Shown: positions 28,084 through 64,000 of the stretch, piece by piece
How positions within the stretch are numbered: the first letter of the stretch is position 1
Layout of the letters: each line of letters starts with the position of its first letter
From: Candidatus Wallbacteria bacterium
GTDB lineage: Bacteria > Muiribacteriota > JAQTZZ01
Reading direction: 5' to 3'
DNA: 64,000 nucleotides
Assembly: GCA_028687545.1 (NCBI GenBank)
Contig: JAQTZZ010000015.1
Span: forward strand, 1 to 64,000
Notes under the pieces: generated by a model
Database searches by the model: none
Told to the model about the DNA's origin: nothing
What the model saw: only the letters and a program-made list of their open reading frames with translations
Translations under genes and position numbers: made by a program

Positions 28084-28117
28084 ATTATGTCCGGAATCAG
28101 CGCCTGTTCAAGTTACA
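28084..28117 (-). promoter_or_regulatory. Promoter with TGTAACTTG element, clostripain gene 3
   Basis: On the minus strand TGTAACTTG (28117-28109) is 28 bp before CATAAT (28089-28084). The element coincides with the gene-proximal end of the 74-bp repeat 28111-28184. The leader is about 20 nt. Confidence 0.55.
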
Positions 28118-28184
28118 ATCTGCTGCGGCTCTTACGAACTTGTTCGTTAGAGCCGCACATCCACACTGCAAGTGTGGGAGCTGC
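28111..28184. repeat. 74-bp double-hairpin repeat, copy 1
   Basis: By direct reading it is identical at 70 of 74 positions to 29101-29174. It starts AGTTACAAT and contains two stem-loops: TGCGGCTCTTACGAAC / GTTCGTTAGAGCCGCA (15 of 16 pairs) and CCACACT / AGTGTGG. Each copy ends the same distance, about 55-57 bp, upstream of a minus-strand exported-protein gene. Confidence 0.8.
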
Positions 28185-29072: not shown

Positions 29073-29107
29073 ATCGTACCTGCTGAACTGGAGGAGAGCC
29101 AGTTACA
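29073..29107 (-). promoter_or_regulatory. Promoter with TGTAACTGG element, Tyr-rich protein
   Basis: On the minus strand TGTAACTGG (29107-29099) lies 29 bp before TACGAT (29078-29073), a weaker -10 match. The element is the gene-proximal end of the 74-bp repeat copy 2, so this case is not independent of the one at 28084-28117. Confidence 0.45.
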
Positions 29108-29174
29108 ATTTGCTGCGGCTCTTACGAACTTGTCCGTTAGAGCCGCACATCCACACTGCAGGTGTGGGTGCTGC
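29101..29174. repeat. 74-bp double-hairpin repeat, copy 2
   Basis: It has the same length and structure as 28111-28184 with four substitutions, two of which lie in the hairpin loops or flanks. It occupies the spacer between the Tyr-rich protein gene and the 45-aa small gene. Confidence 0.8.
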
Positions 29175-46692: not shown

Positions 46693-46760
46693 AACGCCTA
46701 TGCCTCCGTAGGGTTTAATGATGACCTTGCAGAATCGGTTTCCTGGCTTAGAGGCATCCT

Positions 46761-46875
46761 GCATGCGATCTTCTGCGCCTGACTTCGTTGGCCATTCACT
46801 CGCTCCTCACAGTACTTCTATGTACGGCTCGTTCGCTCGTTCATGTCCGCCTCGTCAGGCTTGAATCTCGCATGC
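46761..46875. repeat. Large imperfect hairpin in the btuB-like leader
   Basis: GCATGCGATC...GCGCCTGAC (46761-46782) pairs with GTCAGGCTTG...CTCGCATGC (46854-46875), and the interior continues as an imperfect palindrome (GGCCATTCACTCGCTCC against GAACGAGC...CATGTCCGCC, with CAGTACTTCTATGTAC at the tip). It overlaps the 3' edge of the riboswitch, so it could act as the expression platform, although its plan is also that of an interspersed BIME-type repeat. Confidence 0.55.
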
Positions 46876-48091: not shown

Positions 48092-51000
48092 GTGAAGTTT
48101 GTTGTTTGTTTTGAGCTTTTATTCGCATTTATATGTTCATCACAGACAACCATTGTTTTCTCTAATTATTATATAGCCGATCAGCATCAAACAGAGATAT
48201 CAAATCCCCGTTTTTCACCTTCTTTTTCTTCCCCCATTATCCTGAACGAATCAGCAGCTTTCTCTTCAGATACTTCTGAAACCGTTTCATGTCTAACCGA
48301 ACTTAAATCCCTGAATGGACTGATCGATACTTCTCTCTGGACTCTTTATCTTTCCAAACAGATCACTGAACAGATGTTCAAGGAGTCCATCGAGCAAATC
48401 TACTCCGCCTCACTCGACGAAATCGACCGCGAATCCACTTCCATAGCCATCAAAATAGCCAAGTCCCTGAAAAACGACGATGATCATCCTTTCCGCGAAT
48501 TCACTGATTTCTTCCACCGTTCAACCGAGAACCAGAAAAGTGGCCTTTCTACTCTAGCAATGAAAATTGATGAAAACCTGCGGAATAAAAATTTGAACCC
48601 CGCTCCTCGTACACCGAACCTCGAACCTTTTCTCCGTGAAATCAAAGAAATCATCTCAGAAGCAAACTCAGCCCAGGTCAGCTTTGCTCCAAGTATCATT
48701 ACCCTGCAGCAGATGCTCGACTGTTACGGCATGCTGATTGTGAATTACCAATCCCAGGCATTGAACGAATTGACTGCCACAAAAAATTTCGCTGATTACG
48801 GAAAAAAACGGAAATTCTTCATCAAAGCTTTTGATCTTTATCATATTCTTGGTCTGTCTTTGGATAAAAGAAATGAAAAGGCAGACACAGTTGCGACTGT
48901 CATGAGTAAAGCCGATAAAGCCAAAAATGAAGGCCGTTATTCGGACGCCATTGGTCTGTATAAACAAGTGCTGAGTGTGGATTACCAGTATGGCATCAAA
49001 CATGACTGCCATCAACGTATCGGAGAATGTTATCGCGAGCTGAACGATTATGATAACGCCATTTTTTATTTCAAGGAAAGCATCGTCAAAGACTCAAGTG
49101 ATTCGACAAAATATTATTCCTATAAATACGGCTTGGATTGGCATCTTGGTGGTAATCTGCCCACGACTGAAGACACTTATCTGAAAGCAGTGAAGTTCTG
49201 CCAGGATGTGATCGGAATTTCACCCTTGCAGGATATGCGTAATGATTGCCGCTACCAGATCGGTGCGATTTACCAGAATTGGCTGGCCTCACTTTCCGGG
49301 ATCAGCGACGAGAAAAAGGAGCTTTATTACAATAAAGCCATCGATGCTTATCGAACTTTCATCGCAGAGTATCAGCAACCTGTGAATACAAACTACAGCA
49401 CTCCTGCCCAATGGAATGCCCGCAGGGAAGCCGGTTACTCTTTCTCACAACTGGGGAGAATTTCAAGCCTGGCCAAAGAAAAACGGATCTCATACTACGA
49501 CCAGGCCGGAGAGGAATACTTGAAAGCAGCCCGTGATTACCCGGAGAGTGGCGATAGTCCTTTGAATTACCATACTGCAGCTTACGTTTATCAATACGAT
49601 GTTCAAGCGATCTTGGACAATCGAGCTGACAAGGACAGATTTTATCTCAAGGCAATCGCTGCTTATAAGGAACTCTACACAAATTATCCTACTAATGCGC
49701 AGTATGATTATACGCTTCTCGATATCGGCGTCTGTTACCGCAACATGGGAAGTTATTATGAAAATGGCATGATGAATTACAGACGTGAATATTTACTGCT
49801 CGCTGTAGAAAGCTGCGACCAGTACCTGAAAGATTTTCCAAACGGAAGATACCGCCCTGCCAGCGCCATGCAGGCAGCTACCAGCTGCAGCGACATAGCC
49901 TTTTCGTATCAAAACGAGAAAGACATAGCCAATGTGGAAAAATACTTTCTGCTCAGTTCGGATTACTGGAAAATGGTTGTAAACATGAATGAAGCTGACG
50001 ACAGTTCCAAGCTGCAGAGCCAGTACCATCTCGGCGAAAACTACAAATACCTGTCCGATGCATTTAATTCGATCGCCAATGACAAGGAAAAACAGCGGAA
50101 ATACGGCTTGATCGCAGTGGACGAATTTGCCAAGGTTCCAGGCTACAGTTCCACTCTTTACGGTTACCGTTATTATTGTGCCGGTAGTTTACGCTCAAGC
50201 GGCGATATCTTCCTGGGGCTTGAAGAGTATGACAAGGCGATCAGTAATTATGATCAGGTCATAGCAGGTTATTCAGACATTACAAGTGATTACCAATACA
50301 GCCACCTGGGAAAAGCGGATTCCCTTTACGGCAAAGCCTCATACACTGAAGCAAAAGACTGGTACAATAAAATTTACGGGTTGAACATCGATAACTTTTC
50401 AAAGCCTTATTTTTACTGTCGCACAGAACTCGGCCTGGCTAAGTGTGAACTCGGCCTCGGCAATCCCCAGGCAGCACACCAGCACCTGGCAAAGGTTGTG
50501 AAAGATTATAACTCAGCCAGCACCTGGTTTGACGAATATGTGCTGGAAGCCAAGGAGCTGACCCTGAGTAAAGTACTGCGTATCAAAATCGACCCCATGG
50601 TAGACACCATCGCTGAAGGTGAAAGCAAAACCTTCACAGCCACCGTAGTTTACCCAGACGACACCCAAGCCATGGTGCCGTCAGGTTCGATCAGGGAATG
50701 GAAATGGGAATGCAGCGGGAATGAAGGCGACAACCACGTTTTTGATTTCACAGGCAACTCCGCGACCTACAAAGGCGGCAGCGGCGATTTCATGGACACG
50801 ATCCTGACAGCCAAGGTCTTGATCGATGCCGGTGGTTATGGTGCCCGTGCAGTTTCTGCTGAGATATGGATTGAAGGCGACAACCAGGTGCCGGTGAGTT
50901 TGGTGAATGAGGATGGGAAGAGGATCAGAAAAGCTCCGATGTATATCCCTTACGATGGTTCTCATTGTGGGCCACCACCTGCCATTGAAACTCCGGTATC

Positions 51001-52384
51001 AAACGCAATTGAATTTCTGACAAAATATACTGACGATTCAGTTGATTCATTCACACTGATTTTTTTGGGAGATGACGATACTCACGAAACTGTTTTAAAG
51101 TTTACGGAAACTGGAAAAGACTCCAGGTTTTTCCAATCTGAGAATGGTTTAAGCACTATTGAGATAATCTATCCCCTGCCAGATATTCAAAGCAATACCC
51201 GCAATATTTTACCCGGACAAGACAAAATTAAATTCAAAATATACTTTTCCGATGCTGTAATGCCAATCGAACTGCCAATCTGGAAAGGCCCGGGCATTGG
51301 TACAAGTGAGATCAGAGATGACCTTTATCTGGCTTCCAATCAGATTATCGACATATCAAGTTGCGGAGATTTAAGTCCTGAAGATTATTCAACAAAAAAT
51401 ACTGTGGTTCATGTTCAAATCAAAGATAGTCTTGCCCGCACTGATTCGGTAAAAGTAAAGATATCAAGCAGTGCTGAATCAGAAAGAGAATTGGAATGCA
51501 AAAAAATCAAACCAGGCACCTATTTATCTGATGGAATAGTCCCGATTGAATGGAACTACGTCAATCCTCAGATAAAATTTCATGGAAAAGAATATACCGT
51601 CTTGAAAGTCAATCCCAGCAACAATACTACTGCCGGTGAAATTGAGTTGAAGTATTCTTCCGGGAAATACAGCATCAATAGAAGAGAATTTTCTGGTAAG
51701 GGCGCGCTTGTGATTTGCGCTTTGCAGAATGACGAAATGCCTTCAGCCTCATCAATATTCTGGGACACTGAGCGGATTTTTTATCATTGCACAGGCAAAT
51801 ATCACCAGGTCATTGAAGGCATTAAGGAAGTGCTCAAAACAGTAAAGGAAATGACTGACTGCAATTACAATGTCACAGTGAACTTCGTGCCTTTTGTCAG
51901 CAACTTTGATAATTTCAGCAAGAATGCTTATGATCTCTCGAAATATGCCGTGATTTACTTTATCGGGCATAGTGCAACTATTTCTGATGTAACAATGTTC
52001 TATGTTTTCAAAGACAAGAGTGATGTCTGGTCAGGAATAGAACCCAAAGGCGAGATTTTCCCTGATACTATTAAGGCTCTGACTTTATTTTTTGAAGATG
52101 AGCAGTGCCCAAAGTTTGTGATAATGAATGCCTGTGAATCTGCATTAGGTGAAAATGGTGGAAAGTGGTTAGAAGTATTTAAATCTAAAGCCCTGGTTGG
52201 CTGGACGGACACTGTCCAAGTTCCAACAGCAGAAGTGTTTTTTACCAGTTTTTTTAAAATAGTGAAAGATGGGTGGAAACAGCAAATACCCACATCCGTG
52301 TATTCTGCATGCGAACAGGCGGGTAGCGAGGTCCCGAACATGCCTTACAAAATCGAGGGGAATGAAAATCTCTTACTCCCATAA
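48092..52384 (+). CDS. Exported TPR protein with C-terminal CHAT/caspase-like domain, 1430 aa
   Basis: A GTG with GGGAGG 6 bases upstream starts a protein with a signal peptide (about 1-25). About residues 270-830 contain many tetratricopeptide-like repeats (e.g. RIGECYRELNDYDNAIFYF). Residues 830-950 look like an Ig-type domain (IDPMVDTIAEGESKTFTATV). The last 230 residues resemble a CHAT/caspase-hemoglobinase fold: AVIYFIGHSA with the His at 1293 and KFVIMNACESALG with the Cys at 1348, followed by LVGWTDTV. CHAT peptidases such as those partnered with TPRs cut specific proteins. The gene is balanced in composition up to about 51.0 kb and AT-rich after, so the C-terminal part seems to have a separate origin. 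Confidence 0.82.
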   Translation: MKFVVCFELLFAFICSSQTTIVFSNYYIADQHQTEISNPRFSPSFSSPIILNESAAFSSDTSETVSCLTELKSLNGLIDTSLWTLYLSKQITEQMFKESIEQIYSASLDEIDRESTSIAIKIAKSLKNDDDHPFREFTDFFHRSTENQKSGLSTLAMKIDENLRNKNLNPAPRTPNLEPFLREIKEIISEANSAQVSFAPSIITLQQMLDCYGMLIVNYQSQALNELTATKNFADYGKKRKFFIKAFDLYHILGLSLDKRNEKADTVATVMSKADKAKNEGRYSDAIGLYKQVLSVDYQYGIKHDCHQRIGECYRELNDYDNAIFYFKESIVKDSSDSTKYYSYKYGLDWHLGGNLPTTEDTYLKAVKFCQDVIGISPLQDMRNDCRYQIGAIYQNWLASLSGISDEKKELYYNKAIDAYRTFIAEYQQPVNTNYSTPAQWNARREAGYSFSQLGRISSLAKEKRISYYDQAGEEYLKAARDYPESGDSPLNYHTAAYVYQYDVQAILDNRADKDRFYLKAIAAYKELYTNYPTNAQYDYTLLDIGVCYRNMGSYYENGMMNYRREYLLLAVESCDQYLKDFPNGRYRPASAMQAATSCSDIAFSYQNEKDIANVEKYFLLSSDYWKMVVNMNEADDSSKLQSQYHLGENYKYLSDAFNSIANDKEKQRKYGLIAVDEFAKVPGYSSTLYGYRYYCAGSLRSSGDIFLGLEEYDKAISNYDQVIAGYSDITSDYQYSHLGKADSLYGKASYTEAKDWYNKIYGLNIDNFSKPYFYCRTELGLAKCELGLGNPQAAHQHLAKVVKDYNSASTWFDEYVLEAKELTLSKVLRIKIDPMVDTIAEGESKTFTATVVYPDDTQAMVPSGSIREWKWECSGNEGDNHVFDFTGNSATYKGGSGDFMDTILTAKVLIDAGGYGARAVSAEIWIEGDNQVPVSLVNEDGKRIRKAPMYIPYDGSHCGPPPAIETPVSNAIEFLTKYTDDSVDSFTLIFLGDDDTHETVLKFTETGKDSRFFQSENGLSTIEIIYPLPDIQSNTRNILPGQDKIKFKIYFSDAVMPIELPIWKGPGIGTSEIRDDLYLASNQIIDISSCGDLSPEDYSTKNTVVHVQIKDSLARTDSVKVKISSSAESERELECKKIKPGTYLSDGIVPIEWNYVNPQIKFHGKEYTVLKVNPSNNTTAGEIELKYSSGKYSINRREFSGKGALVICALQNDEMPSASSIFWDTERIFYHCTGKYHQVIEGIKEVLKTVKEMTDCNYNVTVNFVPFVSNFDNFSKNAYDLSKYAVIYFIGHSATISDVTMFYVFKDKSDVWSGIEPKGEIFPDTIKALTLFFEDEQCPKFVIMNACESALGENGGKWLEVFKSKALVGWTDTVQVPTAEVFFTSFFKIVKDGWKQQIPTSVYSACEQAGSEVPNMPYKIEGNENLLLP

Positions 52385-52391
52385 TAAATCT

Positions 52392-53639
52392 ATGAAAAAA
52401 CTGGTTTTAATTTTCGGAATACTGATATGTGCTGTTTTTATCTGGACAGACAGGACTTGCCGGGAAAATCGGAGATATCTTGAAAATCAGGCAAACACTT
52501 GGATAGAAGATATTGGGTATCTTCCAGACAGTATTGCGTCTCTTTATACATATAAAATTGACATTGCCGATCGCCATCAGTCTCTTGAATGCCAGCTTCT
52601 GAGTTTCTTTCCGAACTGGCGGGTGACCCAGTATCTGATCAAAAACTCCAGGTCGCGAGGCGTCAAATGTCTTTGTCCAGCCCATTCTTTTTTTTCATGG
52701 TCAATATCCGGCATGTCTGAGAAGGAGACTTTGATTGACGCTCTTGAAGACTGGAAATTGAATCCAGACCTGAAATTTGACAATGACAGGGTAGTTAAAT
52801 TGATCTGCAAAACAGATAACTATCAGGAAACAGACCGGAATTTGCGCACTCCGTTGATAATCGCCACTCGATATGAATTAAAAGAAGTAGTAGTCGAATT
52901 GATAAAGAAAGGAGCGGACGTCAATCTATGCGACAAATCCGGTCAAAATGCTCTCCATTATGCCTTGAAAAGAAGAGAATGGCCATTTCATAGAAATTAC
53001 TTTGCCGAAAAAGCTGGTGATAGAAACACAACAGAAGTGATGCTTACTAAATTCACAACCCGAGCAAATCTTGCTGCGTTTGATATAGCGAAAATGCTGA
53101 TCGAAAATGGCGCAGATGTGAATCTCAAAGATGCTAAAACGCAGACACCTCTGATGAATGCAGCGTATGATCAGTATTCTGAAATTGTAGCTCTTTTGAT
53201 TAAAAAGGGAGCAGATGTCAATGCCGTGAACAACGAAGGCGAAACTGCTCTGATGTTCGCTGCAGTTGTCGATAATCCGGATATAGTTGAACTTCTTTTG
53301 AATTCCGGTGCTTCAATAGAGGTAGTGAGTAAAAATGAAGAAACTGCTTTTCATTGTTCGCTTATCAAGGGTAATAACATGTACAAAAAAGCCGGAGAAA
53401 GAAAAACAGCAAAAATATTGATCGAAAAAGGGGCTGATGTCAATGCAAAGTGGAAGAAAATCGCACCTCCAATACTTTTTTTCATCCAAGATGATGATTA
53501 TTCAATGGTTGAACTTATGATTTCAAAAGGAGCCGACTTGAGTTTCAGGAATAAGAATGGAGACAGCTTGGTTGATATCGCAAGTGGGGATGGACACAAC
53601 GAAATTGTTCGCTTACTTTTGCGTGCTGGAGCGAAATAA
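52392..53639 (+). CDS. Membrane-anchored ankyrin-repeat protein, 415 aa
   Basis: The start is placed at the ATG whose product opens with a single membrane anchor or uncleaved signal (MKKLVLIFGILICAVFIWT); an in-frame ATG ten codons earlier (52362) overlaps the upstream gene and has AGGGGA too close to it. About residues 135-410 are ankyrin repeats (LIKKGADVNLCDKSGQNALH, LIENGADVNLKDAKTQTPLM, LIKKGADVNAVNNEGETALM). It begins 7 bp after the TPR-CHAT gene and shares its AT-rich composition, so the two look like a pair: exported protease-like protein and tethered binding partner. A broken copy of its 5' end lies just downstream. Confidence 0.85.
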   Translation: MKKLVLIFGILICAVFIWTDRTCRENRRYLENQANTWIEDIGYLPDSIASLYTYKIDIADRHQSLECQLLSFFPNWRVTQYLIKNSRSRGVKCLCPAHSFFSWSISGMSEKETLIDALEDWKLNPDLKFDNDRVVKLICKTDNYQETDRNLRTPLIIATRYELKEVVVELIKKGADVNLCDKSGQNALHYALKRREWPFHRNYFAEKAGDRNTTEVMLTKFTTRANLAAFDIAKMLIENGADVNLKDAKTQTPLMNAAYDQYSEIVALLIKKGADVNAVNNEGETALMFAAVVDNPDIVELLLNSGASIEVVSKNEETAFHCSLIKGNNMYKKAGERKTAKILIEKGADVNAKWKKIAPPILFFIQDDDYSMVELMISKGADLSFRNKNGDSLVDIASGDGHNEIVRLLLRAGAK

Positions 53640-53658
53640 TATTTACCATCATAAGTCT

Positions 53659-53734
53659 ATGAAAAAAAATATTATTAATTATCGCTGTACTGCTCTGTGC
53701 TATTTTTATCTGGACTTATCGAAATGAAAGATGA
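53659..53734 (+). pseudogene. Frameshifted 5' fragment of an ankyrin-gene paralogue
   Basis: The stretch ATCATAAGTCTATGAAAAAA... repeats the start region of the gene at 52392. With one A removed from the run of eight after ATG, it reads MKK, then LLIIAVLLCAIFIWTYRNER and a stop, matching LVLIFGILICAVFIWTDRTC of the intact protein. As written, the frame is shifted and stops after 22 codons. It is a truncated duplicate, with the rest lost before the VWA gene. Confidence 0.65.
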
Positions 53735-53749
53735 TCGATTAAATATAGT

Positions 53750-53767
53750 GACGCGCCATGGCACGTC
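53750..53767. repeat. Short interspersed palindrome
   Basis: GACGCGCC / GGCACGTC around a central AT, seven of eight pairs. It belongs to the widespread GTA(G/A)AGACG-type palindromes and marks the junction between the AT-rich ankyrin debris and the balanced VWA gene. Confidence 0.45.
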
Positions 53768-53812
53768 TTTACGGGTGGATCGCCATAAAATAAATAATTC
53801 AAGGAGATAAAA

Positions 53813-55510
53813 ATGAAAACGATCGTCTGTTTTTTACTGACTATCACTGCACTGTCACTTCAAGCCCAGTCGATCCTGGTCCATCAGGTGGACACCAAGA
53901 ATTATCCTTATGTGGAGATCAATTTCGCGGTGATGGACGACGAGGGAAAAGCCAAGAGCATCGGGGCAGACGACAAGCTGCTGCTGAGGCTGTGCTCCCC
54001 GATCAGCGATTTTGAGTTGAAACGCCAGTCCGGCCAGGGTTATGTGCTGCTTCTGCTGGACAAGAGCGGCAGCATGCGCGATGAGATTCCGGGCCTCAAA
54101 AAAGCCGCCAAATATTTCATCGACCTGCTGCCCGACAATTTCAAAGTCTCTTTGATCGCCTTTGACCGCACCATGACTCCGCTCTGCGATTTCAGCCAGG
54201 ACAAGACTTATCTCAAGGATGCTGTGGATAAACTTTCTTCTAAGGGAGCGACAGCTTTTTACGACAGTGTTTACAACAGCCTGGAATCGCTCAACCGGAT
54301 GGAAGGCGCGCCGCGTTATCTGATCGCTCTCACAGACGGCATAGATCAGACCTATGACGGTTCGCCGCCGCTTTCCAAGCATACTATGAAGCAGCTGACT
54401 GATTTCATCAAGGAATCTTCGATACCTGTCTATACGATCGCACTGGGAGCCGATTCTGACAAGGACGTGCTGGTGAAGATCTCGGAAGCAGGCGACGGCT
54501 TTTATTATTACATGCCCAAGGGCAAGGATCTCAGCGCATTGTATGGAAAGCTCGCTGACAACCTCTCGCGGGAATATACCCTGCGGTTCTATTCTCCTTA
54601 TCTCGTCTATGACGGCAGAACCCTCAACCTGGGAATGGACCTCACTCAGAAAGACGCTGAGTTTCACACCAGCCGCGAGTTCAAAGTACCTGATTTTGGA
54701 GAGGGGAAGTATTTCAACTATGAGAACGTGATGCCGACAAAGCCGGACCGTGAGCAGGGTGTGAAGGTGATCATCACAGATGCCAACGGGCATCCGGTCA
54801 ACGGCAATTTCAAGGTGCTGGTGAACGGGCAGGTGGCAGGCAAGGGCCGGATCAACGACGGGGAAGGGAACTTCACTCTCGAACCGCATGCTGTGAACGA
54901 GAATTTCACTGCTCTCAGCGACCAGAAAGTCGTGCATGAGCGGCCGCTCGTGAAGCCTTCCAGACTTTATGTATATACAGTCACCAAAGACAATACCTTC
55001 GTCCAATTCGAGGCCAAGCTCAGGGGACGCTACAATCATAAATATTACAATTTCAGCACTACACCCGACGGCCTGGGCGACAATGAGCGGCTGGCCGACG
55101 TGGAGCCGGGCGAGTACATCATGGAAATCGGAGACAACGGGCAGACGATTTATTACGCTGATGTAAATGTGGAAGAAGGGAAACCGCAGGTGCTGAAGTA
55201 CAGATTTTCCAAGGTGATCGTGGCTTATGACGGGAATGAGATTCCGCCTGCAATCAAGATGGGGCTGATGATCAATATCCACGACAGGAAGCAGGACAAA
55301 TACCTGATGAAGGGGAAGCGCCTTTTCTACTTTGTGGGAAACGACTCTGCCGGTTATCTGCCGCCCGGCGATTACGATATTACCCTGACAGACGCCACTC
55401 AGGGTGATGACGTGGAACTGCTGGCTACCCTGAAATACGATTGCACAGTGTTCGGTGAGGAAATAATCTACACCAACATCCCGGCCGACAAACTTGTGCT
55501 GAAAAAGTAA
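53813..55510 (+). CDS. Exported von Willebrand factor A domain protein, 565 aa
   Basis: AAGGAG lies 8 bases before the ATG. A signal peptide (about 1-18) precedes a short beta section and a VWA domain (about 75-265). The metal-ion-dependent adhesion site is complete: DKSGS with the Asp at residue 83, the Thr of GATAFYD and the Asp of LTDGID. The rest (270-565) is predicted beta-sandwich, with an Ig/carboxypeptidase-regulatory-like section (DANGHPVNGNFKVLVNGQVAGKG, seen as GHPVNGNFKVLVNG). VWA domains bind protein ligands through Mg. It is balanced in base composition, unlike the genes on both sides. Its partners are unknown. Confidence 0.88.
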   Translation: MKTIVCFLLTITALSLQAQSILVHQVDTKNYPYVEINFAVMDDEGKAKSIGADDKLLLRLCSPISDFELKRQSGQGYVLLLLDKSGSMRDEIPGLKKAAKYFIDLLPDNFKVSLIAFDRTMTPLCDFSQDKTYLKDAVDKLSSKGATAFYDSVYNSLESLNRMEGAPRYLIALTDGIDQTYDGSPPLSKHTMKQLTDFIKESSIPVYTIALGADSDKDVLVKISEAGDGFYYYMPKGKDLSALYGKLADNLSREYTLRFYSPYLVYDGRTLNLGMDLTQKDAEFHTSREFKVPDFGEGKYFNYENVMPTKPDREQGVKVIITDANGHPVNGNFKVLVNGQVAGKGRINDGEGNFTLEPHAVNENFTALSDQKVVHERPLVKPSRLYVYTVTKDNTFVQFEAKLRGRYNHKYYNFSTTPDGLGDNERLADVEPGEYIMEIGDNGQTIYYADVNVEEGKPQVLKYRFSKVIVAYDGNEIPPAIKMGLMINIHDRKQDKYLMKGKRLFYFVGNDSAGYLPPGDYDITLTDATQGDDVELLATLKYDCTVFGEEIIYTNIPADKLVLKK

Positions 55511-55575
55511 GGCAGCACTGGCCGGAAAAAACCGGACAGTTGCATTACAACCAACACGGGTTGCTTCATACTACG

Positions 55576-55698
55576 GGTTTCCAAAACTCCACCTTATTTT
55601 TACCTGGTTTTTTTGGGTGAATCGGATAAAATTAGTAGTGGCAGGCAAAAAAATCTCAGCTAATCAAAACAACAAGCAAATTGCCGGTCTGAAGAAGA
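55576..55698 (+). repeat. ~125-bp leader repeat, copy A
   Basis: The segment from TTTCCAAAACTCCACCTT to GCAAATTGCCGGTCTGAA closely matches 61305-61430 in the same orientation. Shared inner blocks include TGAATCGGATAAAATTA (a -10-like TAAAAT) and CAAGCAAATTGCCGGTCTGA. Copy A lies before the HEAT gene at 55749 and copy B before its truncated paralogue at 61441, so the repeat is probably their promoter and leader, duplicated together with the genes. Confidence 0.8.
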
Positions 55699-55748
55699 GA
55701 CCGAACAAACGGCCAAAGATTCATTGAAAACAAATCCCTGGAGGATAA

Positions 55749-57059
55749 ATGCACAATCGCTTGAAAATCACCCTGATTGCCATTCTTTTTTCCCTGGGCC
55801 TGTATTTTCTGATCAGGCAGACAGTGGCATGTAAACAGGATGGGCGAGGTGACCTCACACCAAAGGTCACCCAAACCCCGGTGCAGCCGATTAATCAACC
55901 GCAGACAGTATCGTCGCAACCTGGCCAGACGCAGGATACTGGGCAGACACAAGGGTCTGTCCTTACGGTCAGCGCACCAACCATAGAGACAGTGTCTACC
56001 TCTGAAATTGATCTAAACAAGATTGTATGGCTCAGGGATTATCTGAAGAAATATATCGGAAAGATAAAGGATGAATATCTCAAAGCATTGAATGATTTGC
56101 TGCAGGCCATGCAGAATCAAGATCAAAAAGGTTTCGAAAACGGCATGAATTTTCTGGCTCTGCATTATAAAGAGCTGGTAGAACCGCTGATCGATTTTGC
56201 GCAGGATAATACTCTCGGCTATCTCAGAGCTGTGTCCATCGAACTGCTGGGGCGGAGCAAAGATCCGCGTGCGATCGATCCGCTTGTGATACTGAGTGAC
56301 AAAATCGAAGAAAAAGAGATCAGGTCAACAGCAATTCAAGCTTTAGCTGTTTTTGATGATGAGAGATCTGAAGAAAAAATCTTTAAAATTTCGGCAGACA
56401 GAAAAGATAACTTGCGTGAGATAGCCATAACATTAATCGGTGGGAAATATACAAGAGACAAAACAAAAGATCTTTTGCTTGAAATACTTCATAGTAATCC
56501 ACCAGAAAGCGATGAAATTATTACTGCTGCGAGTTATTCATTAAGAGGTTTTAATTCAGATGAAGTAATTGTGAGTTCATTAAAACAAATAATTAGCGAC
56601 AGTAATAACTCCGAAAAAACGAGAGGTGTAGCGATGTTAAGTTTGGCTAAAATCAGCCCATCTGAAGCAATACCATTTATAGAAAGGGGTTTGAAATCTA
56701 ATGAAAGAGTGGTCAGGTTCAATTCTGTAATGGCAGCTTCGTTTTCTAATAATGATCTGATTTACGAAGAATTGTATGGTTTATTAATTAATGTTAGTGA
56801 ATTTCCTCACATCAGAAATGCAGCAGCTAAAGTTATCGAAAAAACCAAGCCAGATACTGTTGTAAAAAAAATCCGTGCAGAATTTTTAAGATTGGATGAT
56901 TTTGGAGCTGGTCTGGTAGCTGATATATTTGTTGCAGCCAACGACATAGACTCAATCGATCTTATGAGGCAGAGATCAAGTAATACTTCTGATACCTATT
57001 TGAAGAAAACTCTAGAAGAAAAAGCACTAAAAATCGAATCCGAAAAGGATAGGAAATGA
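55749..57059 (+). CDS. Membrane-anchored HEAT-repeat protein, 436 aa
   Basis: An N-terminal membrane anchor (about 5-26; LKITLIAILFSLGLYFLIRQ) is followed by a Pro/Gln/Thr linker (40-85) and HEAT-type helical repeats from about 130 to 430 (LRAVSIELLGRSKDPRAIDP, STAIQALAVFDDERSEEKIF). HEAT solenoids bind other proteins; no catalytic motif is present. GGAGGATAA precedes the ATG. The first ~200 codons are balanced in composition and the rest AT-rich, so the gene looks chimeric. It overlaps the next gene by 4 bp. The anchor region resembles the 77-aa product at 61441. Confidence 0.84.
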   Translation: MHNRLKITLIAILFSLGLYFLIRQTVACKQDGRGDLTPKVTQTPVQPINQPQTVSSQPGQTQDTGQTQGSVLTVSAPTIETVSTSEIDLNKIVWLRDYLKKYIGKIKDEYLKALNDLLQAMQNQDQKGFENGMNFLALHYKELVEPLIDFAQDNTLGYLRAVSIELLGRSKDPRAIDPLVILSDKIEEKEIRSTAIQALAVFDDERSEEKIFKISADRKDNLREIAITLIGGKYTRDKTKDLLLEILHSNPPESDEIITAASYSLRGFNSDEVIVSSLKQIISDSNNSEKTRGVAMLSLAKISPSEAIPFIERGLKSNERVVRFNSVMAASFSNNDLIYEELYGLLINVSEFPHIRNAAAKVIEKTKPDTVVKKIRAEFLRLDDFGAGLVADIFVAANDIDSIDLMRQRSSNTSDTYLKKTLEEKALKIESEKDRK

Positions 57060-58021
57060 ACGAAAATTTAAATAAAGAAAACTGCCAACATTGGTTCCCA
57101 ATTCTAGGAATTATCAGCTTGATTTTAAGTTTAGCAGTATTTGCTAACATGATGGATTTATTACTTACTGCAGGAAAAATAATAGATAAGTATCCTTTTT
57201 TAAAATTTTACAAATATTTGTCTCTTCAAGCTAACGATTCATCGCTTTTAAATCTTTGGTATATTTATTTGATTTCAACTGGATTAATTTTCTTGGAATT
57301 TTGTGGGAAGACAGAAAATTTAACTGTTAAGTTTTTAAGAGTAGTAGCTTTAGAATTTGTATATATTGATTTTGCATTATTTCCCCCTTGCGATACTGCT
57401 TATTTTAATCTGAGTACCAATGATTTTGGTGAGAATTCTTTACTATCAATGAATAATTTCAGATTGTTGTTTTGTGTATTCTCGTTGATAATATTGTTTT
57501 ATTTGATCAAAACTCTATACCTTTGGGTGAGTAATTATCCAACAACTTCCGTTGCGGATTTCTACAACAAGGAATTTTCTGACAAGCAGGTATCAATAGT
57601 ACCAAAAAAGCAAGAAATCACTAAATTTTCCTCACAAGATACAAATTCATCTGCAGAAAAAAATTTCTCAGTGATATTGATCTCTAGAATTGTTAACTTT
57701 TTCCACTCAAAAACCATGTTCATCAACGTGTTAACAATAATTACGATTTCAATAACACTATTTATCACTCAATCAATGGCAAATATGGTGTTTATGATTA
57801 CTGCAAATTTTATTGAATATTCGAACCTATTGTACCAGGAACAAGATGCAATCCTGTCGGCGATTTCCACTATAGCTATATTATACATATTTTTAGTCTT
57901 CTTTGACAAGAGGAAAGATAAACGCGAGTTGTTTATAAAATTGAATGGTTTTATTTTGAATTTCGTAAATTTCTCTATTTTTTTTGTTTGCGCGTATATG
58001 CATTCGAAATTTTGGGAGTAA
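57056..58021 (+). CDS. Polytopic membrane protein of unknown family, 321 aa
   Basis: Six or seven hydrophobic segments are visible (about 12-36, 62-82, 90-110, 138-160, 225-253, 262-282, 292-315), with a hydrophilic loop rich in Ser, Asn and Lys from about 165 to 215. No family motif is recognised. It overlaps the HEAT gene by 4 bp (ATGA) and precedes the exported NlpC/P60-like gene by 10 bp, so the three form one transcription unit. It is strongly AT-rich. A role in anchoring or exporting its neighbours is only inferred from position. Confidence 0.78.
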   Translation: MNENLNKENCQHWFPILGIISLILSLAVFANMMDLLLTAGKIIDKYPFLKFYKYLSLQANDSSLLNLWYIYLISTGLIFLEFCGKTENLTVKFLRVVALEFVYIDFALFPPCDTAYFNLSTNDFGENSLLSMNNFRLLFCVFSLIILFYLIKTLYLWVSNYPTTSVADFYNKEFSDKQVSIVPKKQEITKFSSQDTNSSAEKNFSVILISRIVNFFHSKTMFINVLTIITISITLFITQSMANMVFMITANFIEYSNLLYQEQDAILSAISTIAILYIFLVFFDKRKDKRELFIKLNGFILNFVNFSIFFVCAYMHSKFWE

Positions 58022-58031
58022 GGGAGGTAAA

Positions 58032-61000
58032 TTGAAAAAAGGGTGTTTGGTTGTTATGTTGCTTTTTCATTTGTTTTCTGCGAATGCCAAAGGAATTTAT
58101 GCAGATGCAAGCAACCCAGGTGAAATTGGAGATGTTTTATTTAGAGATCTGGCGGCCGGATTTTCCCACATAGATATCCCTAATGGGTCATTTGATCTTT
58201 CTTTCCCTCAATTTGTAGGGCATAATGCAGTATGGATAGGTTACTTTGGTGCATTGTATGGTGATCATGGTTTAAATATTTCTCCTTTATTAAATAAATT
58301 GACTGGTGATTTAAAGACTCCTGGGACAGTGATTGAAAGCACCATAGAAGAAGAACCCAGTGCTGTTCATTATTTAGATCTAATTGACTTCAAGGCACAT
58401 CCATATCGTCATTGGGGACAATCAGAAGGTATGGAGTATTGGGGAGCTGGGTCACAAAGTCTTTCATATGATCAAAGAAAGTTAATCTGTTGTTATTTAA
58501 TGGATAAAGCAGATAGTTATCCTACATGGTTTGAAAGATTACTTATAGGTCCAAGTCATTTTGATAAACCAAACTTTGGAGAGTATATAGATTTTACTGA
58601 TCAAAAAAATAAGTTCAGTTGTGCTTGGTTGGTAGAATATGCATATAGATTCGGTCATTCTTCGATAGTGGCAGTTTCAGAGTTAAATGAGAAGTTTTAT
58701 TTATTATCTCCTCTTGGGATGTGGTTAAATATGGAAGATGCTGTAATTGCACCACCAAAAATAGCATCGATTCAGCCAGATGATAAAACCGTTTTTAAAA
58801 ATGGTGAGAAATTAACTGTTTGCGTTGAAGCTGATGATCAAGATTCAGGTATCTTGAAAGCACAGTTAGAAATACGCCATAGAAATGAAGATGGTACTTA
58901 TTCACTTCTTCAAAAAATGAATTTGAACAACTTATCGATTACAAATAATCATTTATTTATTTTTCCTGATTACCTTTTGACTCAAAATGGAGATTATCAT
59001 TGCACAATTACTGTATGGGACGTTTCATTGAACACTACCTCGCAAGATTTTGCAGTTGAAGTCATATCAGGCACTCTCGGAGTGAAATCCATCAACGGCA
59101 GCGGGGGTAATGGCCCGAACGGCTATTTCGACATTATGAACTGCAACCCTCAATTTTACTGGCTGGTCGACTTTACAAACATTGGGGCTGGTTGGGATTT
59201 TATGCATCGCGTGAATGGATTTTATGCATTGGATGAGTTTCTGACTTATGTCTCAGGATCTTATCCCCCAAAATCAGCCAGCATCAGTAGACCACAAAAA
59301 AGCATGGCTCCCATCAACAGGAATCCGCTCCAAAAAAGCTATGCCTTCAGCCAGCCGCAGAATTCCTTTCTCCCTGTCGGCAGCACTGCCCCCTTTGGCA
59401 CTTATTCCGTCAAGCCAGGCACATACTGGATCAAGTTCAATCCTGTCCAGGGCTGGTCAACTCCTTCGGGCCGGATGGTTACTATCACAACCGGTGAAAC
59501 CACTGTCTACGGAATATACAGGGAAGCTTACTACCCGCTCGCCTGTTACACCAAATGCGGAGGTCTAACCCTTCCCTCAGGCAGATGGAAGATCATTGAA
59601 CCAAAAGGATTCGAGAATCTGGAATTCAAGGATGGTGAAATTGTGCAGCTGCAGGAAGGTACTGCATACACTGTAGTATTCATTGGTGTGACAGGATATA
59701 AAACCCCTGCACCTGTCTCAGGCATTTCCGGGAGCTCAAATTCTCCGATCGGGGAGTATATCCCGAGTTACCGCAACATCACAGTGAGCATCGAACCTCC
59801 TGAAGCGAATCACGCAGGTGCATACTGGTCAGAAACAGTCAGCAGGCCGGACTGGCAGATAAAAAGCGGAGAAACCATCCAGATTCAGGAAGGCCAGCCA
59901 TATACGATTTCATTTAAAAAATTGCTGAAAAATGTCCCCAGATTGAATGACATGTTCTACATGGAAGACGGATATTGGATAACTCCGGATGCTGTATCAG
60001 GCACAATGGAAAACACTGATATCAATATATCTGTCAGTTACGTGCAGATAATGCATAATTCGCAGATCTCAGTCAGCCCTCCCGAAGCTGTGGCAGCAGG
60101 CGGAGCATTCATGCTGGAAAATGTTTATGATTCATGGGAAACAGATAAAAATTATACTTTCCCGCATAAAACTGAGGCCAGAGTAGTTTTCAGAGCTGCG
60201 ACAGGCTGGACAGCTCCTGCTCCAGCGGATCTGATTCTTGATCAGGACAATTCGTATGATTTCAAATATACCCGGAAAATGACAGGACTTTCCATTGTCC
60301 CGTATCCCAGTACATTGCCAAGATCCGATTCTGGAGAAACCAGAGCCTGGAAATTGAGCGCTGATACTATGGAAACAGACTGGATGTCATTCGATCAAAG
60401 CGTGACCCTGCCTGAAGGGACTAATTATCAGATTGTTTTCAAGGATGCAGCCAATGGGTATGCCACTCCAGGTATGATCAGCGGAACCATGACAGGTGCG
60501 GTCTGCTGCGAACACGCCAGTTATCTGCCTAATGCCAAATGGAGCCTTGTTAAAAAAGATTTGCCTTTTTATGAATACCTGCTGCTCGATCCTGATTCAT
60601 TTACAGTTGTCACCAGTAACGCGGTTTACCATAGTAATGATTCAGGCAATACCTGGAATCTTGTCGCAAGCGGCAGCTTCAACAATCTGAGCAACAGTAT
60701 TTATTTTTATCAGGGCCAGGCATATTATGCCACGAATCGCTACCAGCCCGGTACAGGCAATCTGGAATTCGTGCTGGGCCAGGTCGGGTATCCGCCCTCA
60801 TATTTTCCTGCATACGGCGATGTGTCGCTTTCTATGGAGCATTTTGGGACTCCTTCGGATTTCTATCTGCACGGCATCTGCAATGATCAGAGCGATTCGA
60901 CGCATTGCAATCAATATGGACTGCTGCACACCACTGATTACGTCACCTACAAATATGTCGGTCTGCCGATTGAAGGACTTGAACATGCAGGGTTCAATTG

Positions 61001-61367
61001 TCGGTATTCCGGCAGTGGCTGGTATGAATACAGCCCAAGCAGCATCACACCTTTGTGGAACGATTCGGTTCCTGAAACCGGATCGTCTTTCTACGCTGGT
61101 GATCATGGCCTGGTAACATATGTAAATTACAATCATTTCTATCGAGTGACGAGTTTTGAAGCGAGCAAACAACATGGATACAGGCAGGACATTTCCGCCA
61201 TATCCGCTGGTCCGGCCATCAGCGGCTCCATGACTAGGTCAGATGGAAACATATCTCTTGTGACTCAGGGTTATTCAAATCGCAGTATTGGCCGGAGCGA
61301 CTTTGGATTTCCAAAACTCCACCTTTTTTTTCACTGGTTTTTGGGGTTGAATCGGATAAAATTATAA
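58032..61367 (+). CDS. Exported protein: permuted NlpC/P60-like domain plus beta-sandwich repeats, 1111 aa
   Basis: A TTG with AGGGAGGTAA directly upstream gives a signal peptide (KKGCLVVMLLFHLFSANA). Residues 25-230 resemble circularly permuted NlpC/P60 (YiiX/LRAT-like) amidases: GDVLFRDLAAGFSH, a His in FVGHNAVWIGYFGA (residue 64) and a Cys in KFSCAWLVEYAYRFG (residue 197). Residues 240-350 are Ig-like. From about 350 several beta modules repeat a pattern of PPEA...AGGAFMLE and GWTAPAPADL. An Asp-box (SNDSGNTW) near 880 suggests the start of a propeller. The last ~20 residues are encoded by the leader repeat copy B, so the original C-terminus is lost. Composition changes from AT-rich to balanced near 59.05 kb. 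Confidence 0.78.
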   Translation: MKKGCLVVMLLFHLFSANAKGIYADASNPGEIGDVLFRDLAAGFSHIDIPNGSFDLSFPQFVGHNAVWIGYFGALYGDHGLNISPLLNKLTGDLKTPGTVIESTIEEEPSAVHYLDLIDFKAHPYRHWGQSEGMEYWGAGSQSLSYDQRKLICCYLMDKADSYPTWFERLLIGPSHFDKPNFGEYIDFTDQKNKFSCAWLVEYAYRFGHSSIVAVSELNEKFYLLSPLGMWLNMEDAVIAPPKIASIQPDDKTVFKNGEKLTVCVEADDQDSGILKAQLEIRHRNEDGTYSLLQKMNLNNLSITNNHLFIFPDYLLTQNGDYHCTITVWDVSLNTTSQDFAVEVISGTLGVKSINGSGGNGPNGYFDIMNCNPQFYWLVDFTNIGAGWDFMHRVNGFYALDEFLTYVSGSYPPKSASISRPQKSMAPINRNPLQKSYAFSQPQNSFLPVGSTAPFGTYSVKPGTYWIKFNPVQGWSTPSGRMVTITTGETTVYGIYREAYYPLACYTKCGGLTLPSGRWKIIEPKGFENLEFKDGEIVQLQEGTAYTVVFIGVTGYKTPAPVSGISGSSNSPIGEYIPSYRNITVSIEPPEANHAGAYWSETVSRPDWQIKSGETIQIQEGQPYTISFKKLLKNVPRLNDMFYMEDGYWITPDAVSGTMENTDINISVSYVQIMHNSQISVSPPEAVAAGGAFMLENVYDSWETDKNYTFPHKTEARVVFRAATGWTAPAPADLILDQDNSYDFKYTRKMTGLSIVPYPSTLPRSDSGETRAWKLSADTMETDWMSFDQSVTLPEGTNYQIVFKDAANGYATPGMISGTMTGAVCCEHASYLPNAKWSLVKKDLPFYEYLLLDPDSFTVVTSNAVYHSNDSGNTWNLVASGSFNNLSNSIYFYQGQAYYATNRYQPGTGNLEFVLGQVGYPPSYFPAYGDVSLSMEHFGTPSDFYLHGICNDQSDSTHCNQYGLLHTTDYVTYKYVGLPIEGLEHAGFNCRYSGSGWYEYSPSSITPLWNDSVPETGSSFYAGDHGLVTYVNYNHFYRVTSFEASKQHGYRQDISAISAGPAISGSMTRSDGNISLVTQGYSNRSIGRSDFGFPKLHLFFHWFLGLNRIKL

Positions 61368-61430
61368 AGGGCTGGCAAAAAAAAATTCAAGGTTAATCAA
61401 ATCATCAAGCAAATTGCCGGTCTGAAAAGA
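61305..61430 (+). repeat. ~125-bp leader repeat, copy B
   Basis: The sequence matches 55576-55698 in the same orientation (TTTCCAAAACTCCACCTT at the start, GCAAATTGCCGGTCTGAA at the end, TGAATCGGATAAAATTATAA in between). The first 63 bp run through the end of the 1111-aa reading frame, whose stop at 61365-61367 lies inside the repeat. Confidence 0.8.
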
Positions 61431-61440
61431 GGGAATTACC

Positions 61441-61674
61441 ATGAACATTCGCTATAAAGTTTTCCTGTTAGGAATCATCCTGGAAATTGGGCTTCATTTT
61501 TTTATAAGACATGTTTTCACTGCAAGTGAATCCATTCGAGTCGCCATGTCCCAGAAACAAAATGAGATTTCTCAGCCTCAGCCGCCACCAGTAATCGTTG
61601 TAGTATTAAAACGCTATTTATTTTCTGCAAACTCGGGATCTAATAATCATTTGGAGGCTGTGTGGAACTTTTAG
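61441..61674 (+). CDS. Short membrane-anchored protein, 77 aa (truncated paralogue)
   Basis: AGAGGGAATTACC precedes the ATG. The first 27 residues (MNIRYKVFLLGIILEIGLHF) match the anchor of the HEAT protein at 55749, and a QPQPPP linker follows as there; the HEAT domain is missing. The remaining residues (VVVLKRYLFSANSGSNNHLE) may be out-of-frame debris. It overlaps the start of the next gene by 13 bp. It is either a small anchored protein or the stump of a HEAT-type gene that lost its 3' part. Confidence 0.55.
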   Translation: MNIRYKVFLLGIILEIGLHFFIRHVFTASESIRVAMSQKQNEISQPQPPPVIVVVLKRYLFSANSGSNNHLEAVWNF

Positions 61675-62423
61675 GCATTATTAATTTTGGAATAGTATGC
61701 TTATTTTTTTTAGGTGGTAATTATTTGCTTTACTTACTTACTAAATCTTTTTGGCAAAACAGAAATGAAGAAGATAACAGACGTTTTATTGATAAGTTTA
61801 TGTTCCAGAGATTAAGTATTTATAAAGTAAACATTTATATTCTTATTTTAATTTCGCTATTTGCAGTACTACGCCTTTTTTTTGTGGAACCAGTTTCGAC
61901 CGGCAATTTATTTTCTGTTACACCTTATAAATATAATCCTGACACTTTTAATGTGATGCTTAATATTATTACATTAATAATTTATTATGTTTTGGTCAAT
62001 TGGGTGTTAATAATAAATTTTACATATGCTGTGTATAATTGCGTAAATCGGAAAGAATGGAAAAAAATACTTAAATTTTCTTACATGTCATTTATTTTTT
62101 ATGCTGTATTCGGAACTACTTTTATCTCCTTAGATTGTTCTTTGTTAAGCAATAATTTAACGTTTCGCTCTTACTTTACCGAGTATAACTATCTCGTGTT
62201 TATTTTAATTATAATAACTGAAGCTTCTTTTATGACTTTTCCATTTTGTTTTTTTTTGAATGCACTTTGGTATAACACGAAGCATATAAAAACAGAACAG
62301 GCTCGCGATCTAAAATTGGCAATAGGGTTACCAGCAATTTTATGGTACTTCCCAAGTTATGCTAGCTTTATAGGCTATATCATGACTTATATTTTCAACA
62401 TTGATTTTAGATTTAAAATGTAG
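61662..62423 (+). CDS. Polytopic membrane protein, 253 aa, paralogue of 6665-7906
   Basis: Six membrane segments are visible (about 5-28, 48-72, 93-122, 136-158, 172-200, 222-245). The first 75 residues align with the ankyrin-bearing membrane protein at 6665 (FWQNRNEE, FMFQRLSIYKVNIYILILIS, LRLFFVEP), but no ankyrin repeats are present between segments 2 and 3. The start is a GTG just after TTGGAGG (short spacing), inside the end of the preceding gene. It is strongly AT-rich. The subtilase gene follows after 10 bp, so the two are cotranscribed. Function unknown. Confidence 0.78.
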   Translation: MELLGIINFGIVCLFFLGGNYLLYLLTKSFWQNRNEEDNRRFIDKFMFQRLSIYKVNIYILILISLFAVLRLFFVEPVSTGNLFSVTPYKYNPDTFNVMLNIITLIIYYVLVNWVLIINFTYAVYNCVNRKEWKKILKFSYMSFIFYAVFGTTFISLDCSLLSNNLTFRSYFTEYNYLVFILIIITEASFMTFPFCFFLNALWYNTKHIKTEQARDLKLAIGLPAILWYFPSYASFIGYIMTYIFNIDFRFKM

Positions 62424-62433
62424 GAGGGGTTTC

Positions 62434-64000
62434 ATGAAAGTTCCTGGAAAGAAGGCAGTTTTATTAAGTTTATTGTTTACACTTACATTTATCCTTCTAA
62501 TGCAATCTATTCACGCACCTAAAACCATATCTATTACTAGCCGTAAGCCATCATTAGACGGTGGACGAATCCAATCCGTAGAAAATGTTTCTACAGAACG
62601 GAGCCCCCAAAAACCTGCTAACTCACCACAAAAAATACAGAAAAGTCTGGAAAATAGTGCTGCTCATTTCCTGATTAAATGTTCAACTTCCGGTCCATCG
62701 CTCCTGAGCAAAATCTCTATCATTAACGATTCCGGAGAAGTGCAGTGGGAAAAAGGTGTTACTTCTGAATGCAGTGAAAAGGTAAAAGTAATCCCTGGAA
62801 ATTACAAGATAACAGTCAAGAATTTATTCTCCACGGAAGTCAGCGTAAAGGACGACCATGGAAAATTCTTTCATCTTGAAAAAGATCAAATAAAAGAAAT
62901 TCTGATTCAGTTGCAACCTCAGATCTCAGTGACTAAAAAAAAGAGCTACAAAGATTACGATGGTTTTGTGCCTACTCAGATTATGGTAGGCCTTAAAGAC
63001 AGCGATAAATCGAAATATGAGAAGGTTTTGAATAATCACAAGGTGAAATACCGGTTATTTGAGAAGAGACTGCTATTCATCAAGGCTGAGAGCAGCAGCG
63101 TATTAAATGACGCAGTCATAGAGCTTAACAAAGAAAACCTTGTTGTAATGACAGAACCTGATGGGATAGTGAAAGCCTGTTCGGATAATATTGATTTCAG
63201 CCAGTGGAATCTTGCTGCAATTGGCTATAAAAACAGCATGGCTGAGAATCTGAGAAGCACAAAGGAAATCAAGATTGCGGTTTTGGATACTGGCATTGAT
63301 TATAATCATGAGGATTTTGCAGGGAATATACTGCCTGGAATTAATTTCATTACTCCGAATACAGCGCCAATAGATGATAACGGCCATGGGACGCATGTTT
63401 CTGGGATCATAGCTGCTGCGCATAATGGGAAGGGCATTGACGGGATTGCGCCATTTGCCAAGATAATCCCAATCAAAGTGCTTGACCAGGACGGATATGG
63501 TTGCTATTCAATTTTAGCTGAAGGGATCAGATTTGCCGCAGATCTCCAGGTAGACCTTATAAATATTAGCTTAGGTGGCTACGGATATTCGTTCGCCCTG
63601 AAGGATGCCGTAAATTATGCAATATCAAAAGGATGTTTGATCGTGGCTGCTGCTGGGAATGATGGAATTACAGAACCTCTATTTCCTGCTTCATACAACA
63701 ATGTTATTTCTGTTGGAGCTTTGAATAAAGACGGCAGTATCTGGGTAAAATCGAATCAGAACAAAGCAGTGGATTTCTATGCACCGGGTGTGGATATAGT
63801 TTCACTGATTCCCGGAAATAAATATGCAAGTTATTCCGGTACTTCTGCGGCAACAGCACATGTAACAGGAATTGCAGCTTTATTGTTAGATACTCAAACA
63901 GACAGAAATCCATTTCTTCTGAATGAAAAATTGAAACAGCTTGGTTCTGGCTGCTATTTAAGCGGGCAATCGATTAACCTGTTAGGTCTTGATTCTGCAA
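62434..64000 (+). CDS. Exported subtilisin-like serine protease (S8), 3' end outside window
   Basis: The frame is open from an ATG with GTAGGAGGGG upstream to the window edge (522 codons visible). A membrane anchor or signal peptide lies at about 8-28, then a Ser/Pro/Gln-rich linker, a beta domain (about 75-175) and an inhibitor-I9-like prodomain (about 180-250). The S8 domain has the full triad: Asp285 in AVLDTGIDYNHEDF, His318 in DDNGHGTHVSGI, and Ser471 in YSGTSAATAHVTG; AAAGNDG carries the oxyanion Asn. It should be an active exported endopeptidase. It ends the second leader-repeat block (61305 onward), in the place taken by the NlpC/P60-like gene in the first block. Confidence 0.92.
   Translation, partial: MKVPGKKAVLLSLLFTLTFILLMQSIHAPKTISITSRKPSLDGGRIQSVENVSTERSPQKPANSPQKIQKSLENSAAHFLIKCSTSGPSLLSKISIINDSGEVQWEKGVTSECSEKVKVIPGNYKITVKNLFSTEVSVKDDHGKFFHLEKDQIKEILIQLQPQISVTKKKSYKDYDGFVPTQIMVGLKDSDKSKYEKVLNNHKVKYRLFEKRLLFIKAESSSVLNDAVIELNKENLVVMTEPDGIVKACSDNIDFSQWNLAAIGYKNSMAENLRSTKEIKIAVLDTGIDYNHEDFAGNILPGINFITPNTAPIDDNGHGTHVSGIIAAAHNGKGIDGIAPFAKIIPIKVLDQDGYGCYSILAEGIRFAADLQVDLINISLGGYGYSFALKDAVNYAISKGCLIVAAAGNDGITEPLFPASYNNVISVGALNKDGSIWVKSNQNKAVDFYAPGVDIVSLIPGNKYASYSGTSAATAHVTGIAALLLDTQTDRNPFLLNEKLKQLGSGCYLSGQSINLLGLDSA

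Follow-up and report, generated by a model that had tools for sequence, protein, structure and literature searches.

The locus at positions 48092 to 64000 (+ strand) of the window, the latter being the whole stretch of 64,000 nucleotides that was analysed (positions 1-64000 of contig C15, which is 74,868 bases long and comes from a Candidatus Wallbacteria genome of 4.54 Mb), is likely to consist of polymorphic protease-toxin/immunity cassettes of this lineage, arranged in two layouts. The secreted proteases of these cassettes probably act as weapons against competitors, and partner proteins in the envelope would shield the producer. All genes named in a preliminary description of this DNA were retrieved on the + strand, each in its place, and the catalytic residues listed there proved to be correct for the CHAT-like protein (His1293 and Cys1348), the NlpC/P60-like protein (His64 and Cys197), and the subtilase (Asp285, His318, and Ser471). 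The families assigned were borne out too, as TPR, Ank, VWA, HEAT_2, and Peptidase_S8 scored above the Pfam cut-offs in the window proteins, CHAT was recognised by predicted structure, and NlpC by profile match. The effector-immunity plan put forward in that description was well supported by recurrence, but it had been conceived as one system, whereas the window holds three pairings, two of which have a common trunk. These pairings, namely CHAT protein with partner, HEAT protein with NlpC protein, and polytopic membrane protein with subtilase, recur as paralogues; they were not scattered, each being found again in a conserved neighbourhood. All comparisons concern two genomes, i.e. that of the window and that of Candidatus Wallbacteria isolate STB_16 (G001; 510 contigs), the sole other genome of the family compared, which is fragmented, so that several of its genes are cut at contig ends. 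Contigs given by a C-number alone belong to the window's genome and those preceded by G001 to the relative. In both layouts, the partner gene adjoins the enzyme-coding end of the large gene, which is the 3' end for CHAT tips and the 5' end for N-terminal heads.

In the first layout, an exported TPR trunk followed by a conserved pre-tip module would carry an exchangeable CHAT cysteine-protease tip at its end. The protein of this type in the window (48092..52384, +; 1430 amino acids (aa)) is composed of TPR repeats, a pre-tip module (approximately residues 860-1170), and a C-terminal CHAT protease-like tip (approximately residues 1190-1430). The tip is divergent, missing the Pfam CHAT cut-off (13.9 bits versus 24; E = 0.037), and the family profile gave no useful match with Protein Data Bank (PDB) sequences. 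Its predicted structure (pLDDT 81.6; pTM 0.81), when compared with the PDB, was closest to SAVED-CHAT 8tl0 (E = 1e-7), with caspases and gingipain next in rank; as modelled, the tip is predicted to have a caspase-like CHAT (clan CD) peptidase fold. Genes with a pre-tip module and/or a CHAT tip amounted to six in the window's genome and 11 in the relative, and across the 17 CHAT tips of the two genomes the catalytic Cys was present in all and the catalytic His in 16. Relatives of the pre-tip module outside the family were not found in 57 sampled genomes. Diversity is concentrated in the tip, with a mean column identity of 64% for the pre-tip module and 34% for the tip. For example, between the CHAT proteins of G001 C459 and G001 C432 the identity drops from 90-94% in the pre-tip module to 29-35% in the tip, and the DNA match between their genes (84.5% across 1052 bp) stops at the tip. 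Signal peptides were detected by hydropathy on the full-length CHAT proteins with a readable N terminus, except for that of C39, of which the start is uncertain. By the same measure, signal peptides were lacking on five orphan CHAT tips, all of them in G001. The order of genes on G001 C181 is full CHAT, ANK, orphan CHAT, T2SSG-like, orphan CHAT, and T2SSG-like, and the first of these orphans retains a pre-tip remnant that is 88% identical at the DNA level to C459 across 415 bp. Such an arrangement may arise when recombination in the pre-tip module swaps in a new tip-plus-partner cassette, and displaced or stocked cassettes would then persist downstream as signal-less orphans. Downstream of the CHAT locus on contig C18 (L104, 8614-11693), three tandem exported proteins of approximately 290 aa were found, each with a papain-like SWG.SWG..GY motif at its end; these are probable C1 cysteine proteases.

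A partner gene was located directly 3' of the tip in 16/16 loci with a readable downstream gene, and its product is either anchored by a transmembrane (TM) segment or signal-bearing. In the window this is a membrane-anchored ankyrin protein (52362..53639, +; start at 52362 or 52392), the N-terminal part of which is pseudopilin-like by inspection; it is proposed as the candidate immunity protein of its CHAT tip. The order CHAT-then-ankyrin is repeated at C39, C41, G001 C181, and G001 C221. Behind the window's ankyrin gene, what remains of a second, decayed gene for an anchored partner (53646..53715, +) has 80% DNA identity to the ankyrin anchor region (52379-52447) and no intact frame. The partners fall into four classes, namely ankyrin (C15, C39, C41, G001 C181a, and G001 C221b), T2SSG-like, i.e. 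pseudopilin G-like (G001 C181b, C181c, and C432, and G001 C459 by inspection), PepSY-like (C16, C22, and G001 C221a, C364a, C258, and C69; a class resting on two sub-threshold Pfam matches and similarity among most of the six), and one small protein at C18. By inspection, all partners have a hydrophobic segment at their start, which the hydropathy scan called in every case but C16; partners and exported tips are thus predicted to share one side of the membrane. There, on the trans side, each tethered or periplasmic partner would neutralise its own tip. Partner class mapped on the tip tree required four changes (minimum three), and none of 200 shuffles gave a number as low; a well supported branch (98/96) separated the PepSY-partnered tips from all others. 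Three changes are needed for the PepSY class alone on the tree built from the pre-tip modules. Moreover, G001 C221b possesses a pre-tip module that groups among those of PepSY-partnered genes, yet it has an ankyrin partner and a tip of the ankyrin/T2SSG type. The pattern of the two trees and this gene indicate that the partner travels with the tip and not with the trunk.

The same pairing would be seen if the exported CHAT or NlpC protease cleaved its tethered neighbour, thereby releasing a signal or triggering self-killing. CHAT proteases with a target encoded next to them are indeed known from Craspase (PMC9729208, PMC10028731), and the co-segregation of tip and partner fits this explanation equally well. 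It is nevertheless unlikely, since the proteins carry signal peptides predicted by hydropathy, no cas/CRISPR or sensor genes were recognised in the neighbourhoods read, and orphan tips with neither signal nor trunk but with their own partner would be senseless for signalling and are expected of cassettes; cleavage of a neighbour accounts for the pairing, not for the orphans or the exchange. A further precedent for such cleavage is given by bacterial gasdermins, which are cut by proteases encoded next to them, but no gasdermin-like protein was recognised among the partners. PepSY, which does recur among them, is a protease-inhibitory propeptide domain, and this too speaks against a protease-substrate pair.

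The second layout of the proposed toxin/immunity cassettes comprises giant secreted repeat proteins with an N-terminal hydrolase, either a C92-type NlpC/P60 domain or a subtilase plus a domain resembling phospholipase C (PLC), and a partner gene upstream, coding for a tethered HEAT protein or a polytopic membrane protein. Partner and head, being contiguous, could be transferred together as a single cassette, flanked by a conserved leader on one side and a conserved C-terminal trunk on the other. In both layouts, the hydrolase domains, probably exported via Sec, would most likely attack envelope targets of neighbouring cells, the producer being protected by its own partner. The first such unit in the window consists of a membrane-anchored HEAT-repeat partner of 436 aa (55749..57059, +), a polytopic membrane protein with approximately six TM segments (MEM1; 57056..58021, +), the gene of which overlaps the HEAT gene at ATGA, and an exported permuted NlpC/P60 (C92-like) head on a truncated giant trunk (58032..61367, +; His64, Glu102, and Cys197 in the numbering that begins with the TTG at 58032). 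The NlpC-like head did not match the Pfam models, Peptidase_C92 (PF05708) included. In an hhalign comparison, however, its family profile scored 39 against that of Peptidase_C92, the His, Glu, and Cys positions being aligned, and no more than 19.5 was reached when the columns were shuffled 100 times; these residues are invariant, in permuted order, in all six aligned heads; judged by profile, the head is a putative relative of Peptidase_C92 and permuted NlpC/P60. A single-sequence structure model of the head was discarded (pLDDT 36), the family profile found no useful match among PDB sequences, and no relatives of the head outside the family were found among 96 sampled genomes. A tethered HEAT protein precedes the NlpC head at seven loci (C15, C13, C26, C63, G001 C223 (twice), and G001 C180), and G001 C140 contains a broken HEAT/NlpC remnant; the intervening MEM1 gene was found at C15 alone among these loci. 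The leader and the anchor-coding DNA of the HEAT genes are common to the loci (77-88%), and the HEAT domains have diverged past DNA detection. Copies of the standalone type are represented by the window's own copy with its shortened trunk and by a 214-aa copy on G001 C223 that comprises the head only. On contig C13 (L046), an IS3-like transposase pair (orfA/orfB; 78446-79617) splits the NlpC-headed giant, of which the frame resumes from 79706. On contig C26 (L047), the NlpC giant occurs in two overlapping frames (43585-44442 and from 44307 onward) near the region of the catalytic Cys, reflecting either a pseudogene or an assembly error.

The second unit starts with a polytopic membrane protein of 253 aa with approximately five TM segments by hydropathy (MEM2; 61662..62423, +), directly upstream of a giant exported subtilase (62434..64000 and on to the contig end, +). 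The subtilase does not end near the end of the window; its frame runs to the contig end, being open for 4,156 codons, and codes for 4,145 aa or more when read from the ATG at 62434. Its Peptidase_S8 match is strong (E = 6.7e-51) and the triad, numbered from this ATG, is complete. Besides the protease, the protein includes a Zn-phospholipase-C-like domain and two Kelch regions, as well as numerous repeats of approximately 80 aa. The PLC-like domain, with an HxxxDxxxPxH-type motif that could be aligned to PDB 1ah7, remained below the gathering score (23.3 versus 26.8 bits in Pfam), as it did in all three paralogues; a scan of the genome contigs with this domain gave no match, and sampled genomes outside the family gave a few weak PLC-like matches. 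A membrane protein is encoded directly before the S8-PLC protein at three loci (C15, C70, and C11). The C70 and C11 membrane proteins are related to each other (26% identity; E about 8e-20), and no match was obtained between MEM1 and MEM2 of the window or between either of them and these two. Other S8 giants, on C21 and C1, were rejected as members, belonging to a different subfamily with different neighbours. Upstream of the one on C21 (L011, 31-7467) lie genes for proteins of the types ankyrin plus Kelch and Kelch plus Sel1-like, together with one for an exported ankyrin protein that has its membrane anchor at the C terminus, possibly another system of like kind. Contigs C15, C63, and C34 terminate within giant repeat genes, and the giant on C26 is still open 600 bases before the contig end, so that the assembly probably breaks at these repeats.

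A subtilase plus a PLC-like domain on Kelch and repeat trunks resembles degradative exoenzymes, and the S8-PLC family was found in the window's genome only. Both would suit ordinary secreted exoenzymes, nutritional or predatory, with accessory chaperones or maturation proteins and multiplied by duplication, with the repeats serving adhesion to the substrate. As an explanation of the whole locus this is quite improbable, for it leaves unexplained the tip-confined diversity next to near-identical pre-tip modules, the several unrelated partner families tracking the tips, the orphan cassettes, and the unrelated heads on a common trunk between duplicated leaders.

The latter duplications join the NlpC and S8 units, which have leader and trunk DNA in common and differ in their partners, with heads that are unrelated. 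Of the leader of the upstream cassette (55575..55748, +), 128 nucleotides (nt) are repeated with 83% identity directly after the truncated NlpC trunk (61305..61431, +), and the NlpC frame stops inside this second copy. Three other HEAT/NlpC loci have a copy (82-88%) of the leader's end joined to the HEAT anchor-coding region; the leader had no match in Rfam. The trunk segment 59266..61280 (+) is duplicated in the subtilase gene at positions 65684-67701 of C15 (82% DNA identity over 2026 columns), the identity reaching 95-98% in 60-nt bins and stopping abruptly near 61280. Conserved flanks around unrelated centres are the pattern left by cassette exchange, in which homologous recombination may have been involved. 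Just after the duplicated leader lies the gene of a 77-aa anchor-only protein (61441..61674, +), previously taken for a component of the system, which most likely represents a degraded copy of the anchor region of a HEAT-type gene, as far as its sequence tells. The tandem position of the units and the duplication of leader and trunk would also follow from tandem duplication and fast divergence, without any cassette exchange, the NlpC and S8 units then being old copies with diverged centres. Yet this is very improbable indeed, as the centres belong to different families (C92-like versus S8) next to a trunk with up to 95-98% DNA identity and an abrupt end, and gene conversion of the flanks alone still leaves unrelated centres. 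More tentatively, the cassettes of the second layout may form a mirror-image class of polymorphic toxins, with a variable N-terminal enzyme, an upstream immunity gene, and a constant C-terminal trunk, present beside a conventional CHAT-tip system in the same cells.

The view that no named system has such a gene set needs amending, as the general kind has been named. Polymorphic toxin systems, including CDI and Rhs, combine a constant trafficking part, an exchangeable toxin domain, an adjacent immunity gene, and standalone cassettes (Zhang et al. 2012, PMC3482391). Tox-Caspase, Tox-NLPC/P60, Imm-Ank, and Imm-HEAT are catalogued there, as are Sec/T2SS-exported toxins with TPR and beta-propeller repeats (PMC3482391). 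The CHAT layout agrees with this plan in its constant trunk, variable terminal domain, 3' partner, and standalone cassettes, and the ankyrin and HEAT partners may be likened to Imm-Ank and Imm-HEAT, being repeat proteins beside a toxin-like cassette. CHAT and the T2SSG-like and PepSY-like partners are not named in the text of that paper, and the partners described here, unlike those of polymorphic toxin systems, are membrane-tethered or exported. The near-universal toxin-then-immunity order has been explained by the need to transfer toxin and immunity genes together, in a single step, onto a constant 5' body (PMC3482391), an argument that predicts the mirror order for a constant 3' body. Indeed, in the NlpC and S8 layout this order is reversed, the partner being 5' at all loci read and the variable enzyme N-terminal, which makes this layout a variant that would work like polymorphic toxins rather than a standard member. 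TPR-CHAT (Csx29) of the type III-E CRISPR Craspase has the same TPR-then-CHAT plan and a neighbouring partner (PMC9729208, PMC10028731), but it is cytosolic and encoded with Cas7-11, whereas the present proteins have signal peptides by hydropathy, a pre-tip module, a multicopy family, and orphan tips. Similarly, the YiiX-type permuted NlpC/P60 enzymes of Peptidase_C92 display the same His/Glu/Cys order, with a profile match well above shuffles, but the heads described here are fused to long repeat trunks and, wherever their loci were read, always accompanied by a tethered HEAT protein encoded upstream. The PLC-like domain has a motif like that of the Bacillus cereus-type Zn-dependent phospholipase C (PF00882), but follows a subtilase domain in a secreted giant. 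PADLOC returned generic subtilase/HEAT and weak IetS matches only, and a known defence system was therefore rejected. No paper was found that contains the phrases 'CHAT domain' and 'polymorphic toxin' together, which is weak evidence for novelty as subscription literature was not covered; with the same coverage, no description of the mirror-image layout was found, nor any Wallbacteria paper on toxins as judged by title and abstract.

Several points weigh against the interpretation as toxin/immunity cassettes. The role of immunity is deduced from position and co-segregation, and protease-substrate pairs would present themselves likewise. On the tip tree, many branches are long and weakly supported, and the ankyrin and T2SSG partners interleave, the clustering of labels being strong for PepSY alone. 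The tip of G001 C459 has Gln in place of the catalytic His. Orphan CHAT cassettes, present in the relative, were not found in the window's own genome. Furthermore, the mirror layout offers one clear trunk duplication, the trunks elsewhere having diverged, and since the S8-PLC family was found in the window's genome only, the subtilase with its membrane protein could instead be an exoenzyme with a maturation factor.

If the cassette interpretation is correct, polymorphic-toxin warfare would extend to an uncultured phylum for which no earlier report was found, CHAT proteases would be added to the exchangeable tips, and pseudopilin-like, PepSY-like, and tethered ankyrin and HEAT proteins to the candidate immunity families. 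The toxin-then-immunity order would then follow from the place of the variable domain, an N-terminal enzyme placing the partner on its 5' side. In addition, specific protease-inhibitor pairs are suggested, which are open to testing in laboratory strains.

Among the other genes of the window, an exported VWA-domain protein (53813..55510, +) had been counted as part of the system; this was rejected, as it stands beside none of the recurring pairs read, and the gene is probably an incidental neighbour. Upstream of the locus, an NB-ARC/TPR/winged-helix transcriptional regulator of 906 aa is encoded (42211-44931, +), as well as a TonB-dependent receptor containing a Plug domain (44965-46764, -), which is preceded by a cobalamin riboswitch (Rfam RF00174; 46856-47057, -). 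An exported ankyrin-repeat protein of 887 aa with a signal peptide is encoded at 2363-5026 (-). Lastly, two kinds of repeat in the window are possible traces of mobile elements: a palindrome-bearing repeat of 74 nt, with copies at 28111-28184 and 29101-29174 (95% identity), and an inverted repeat of 91 nt, of which the two copies (25150-25240 and 29667-29757) are 4.4 kb apart.

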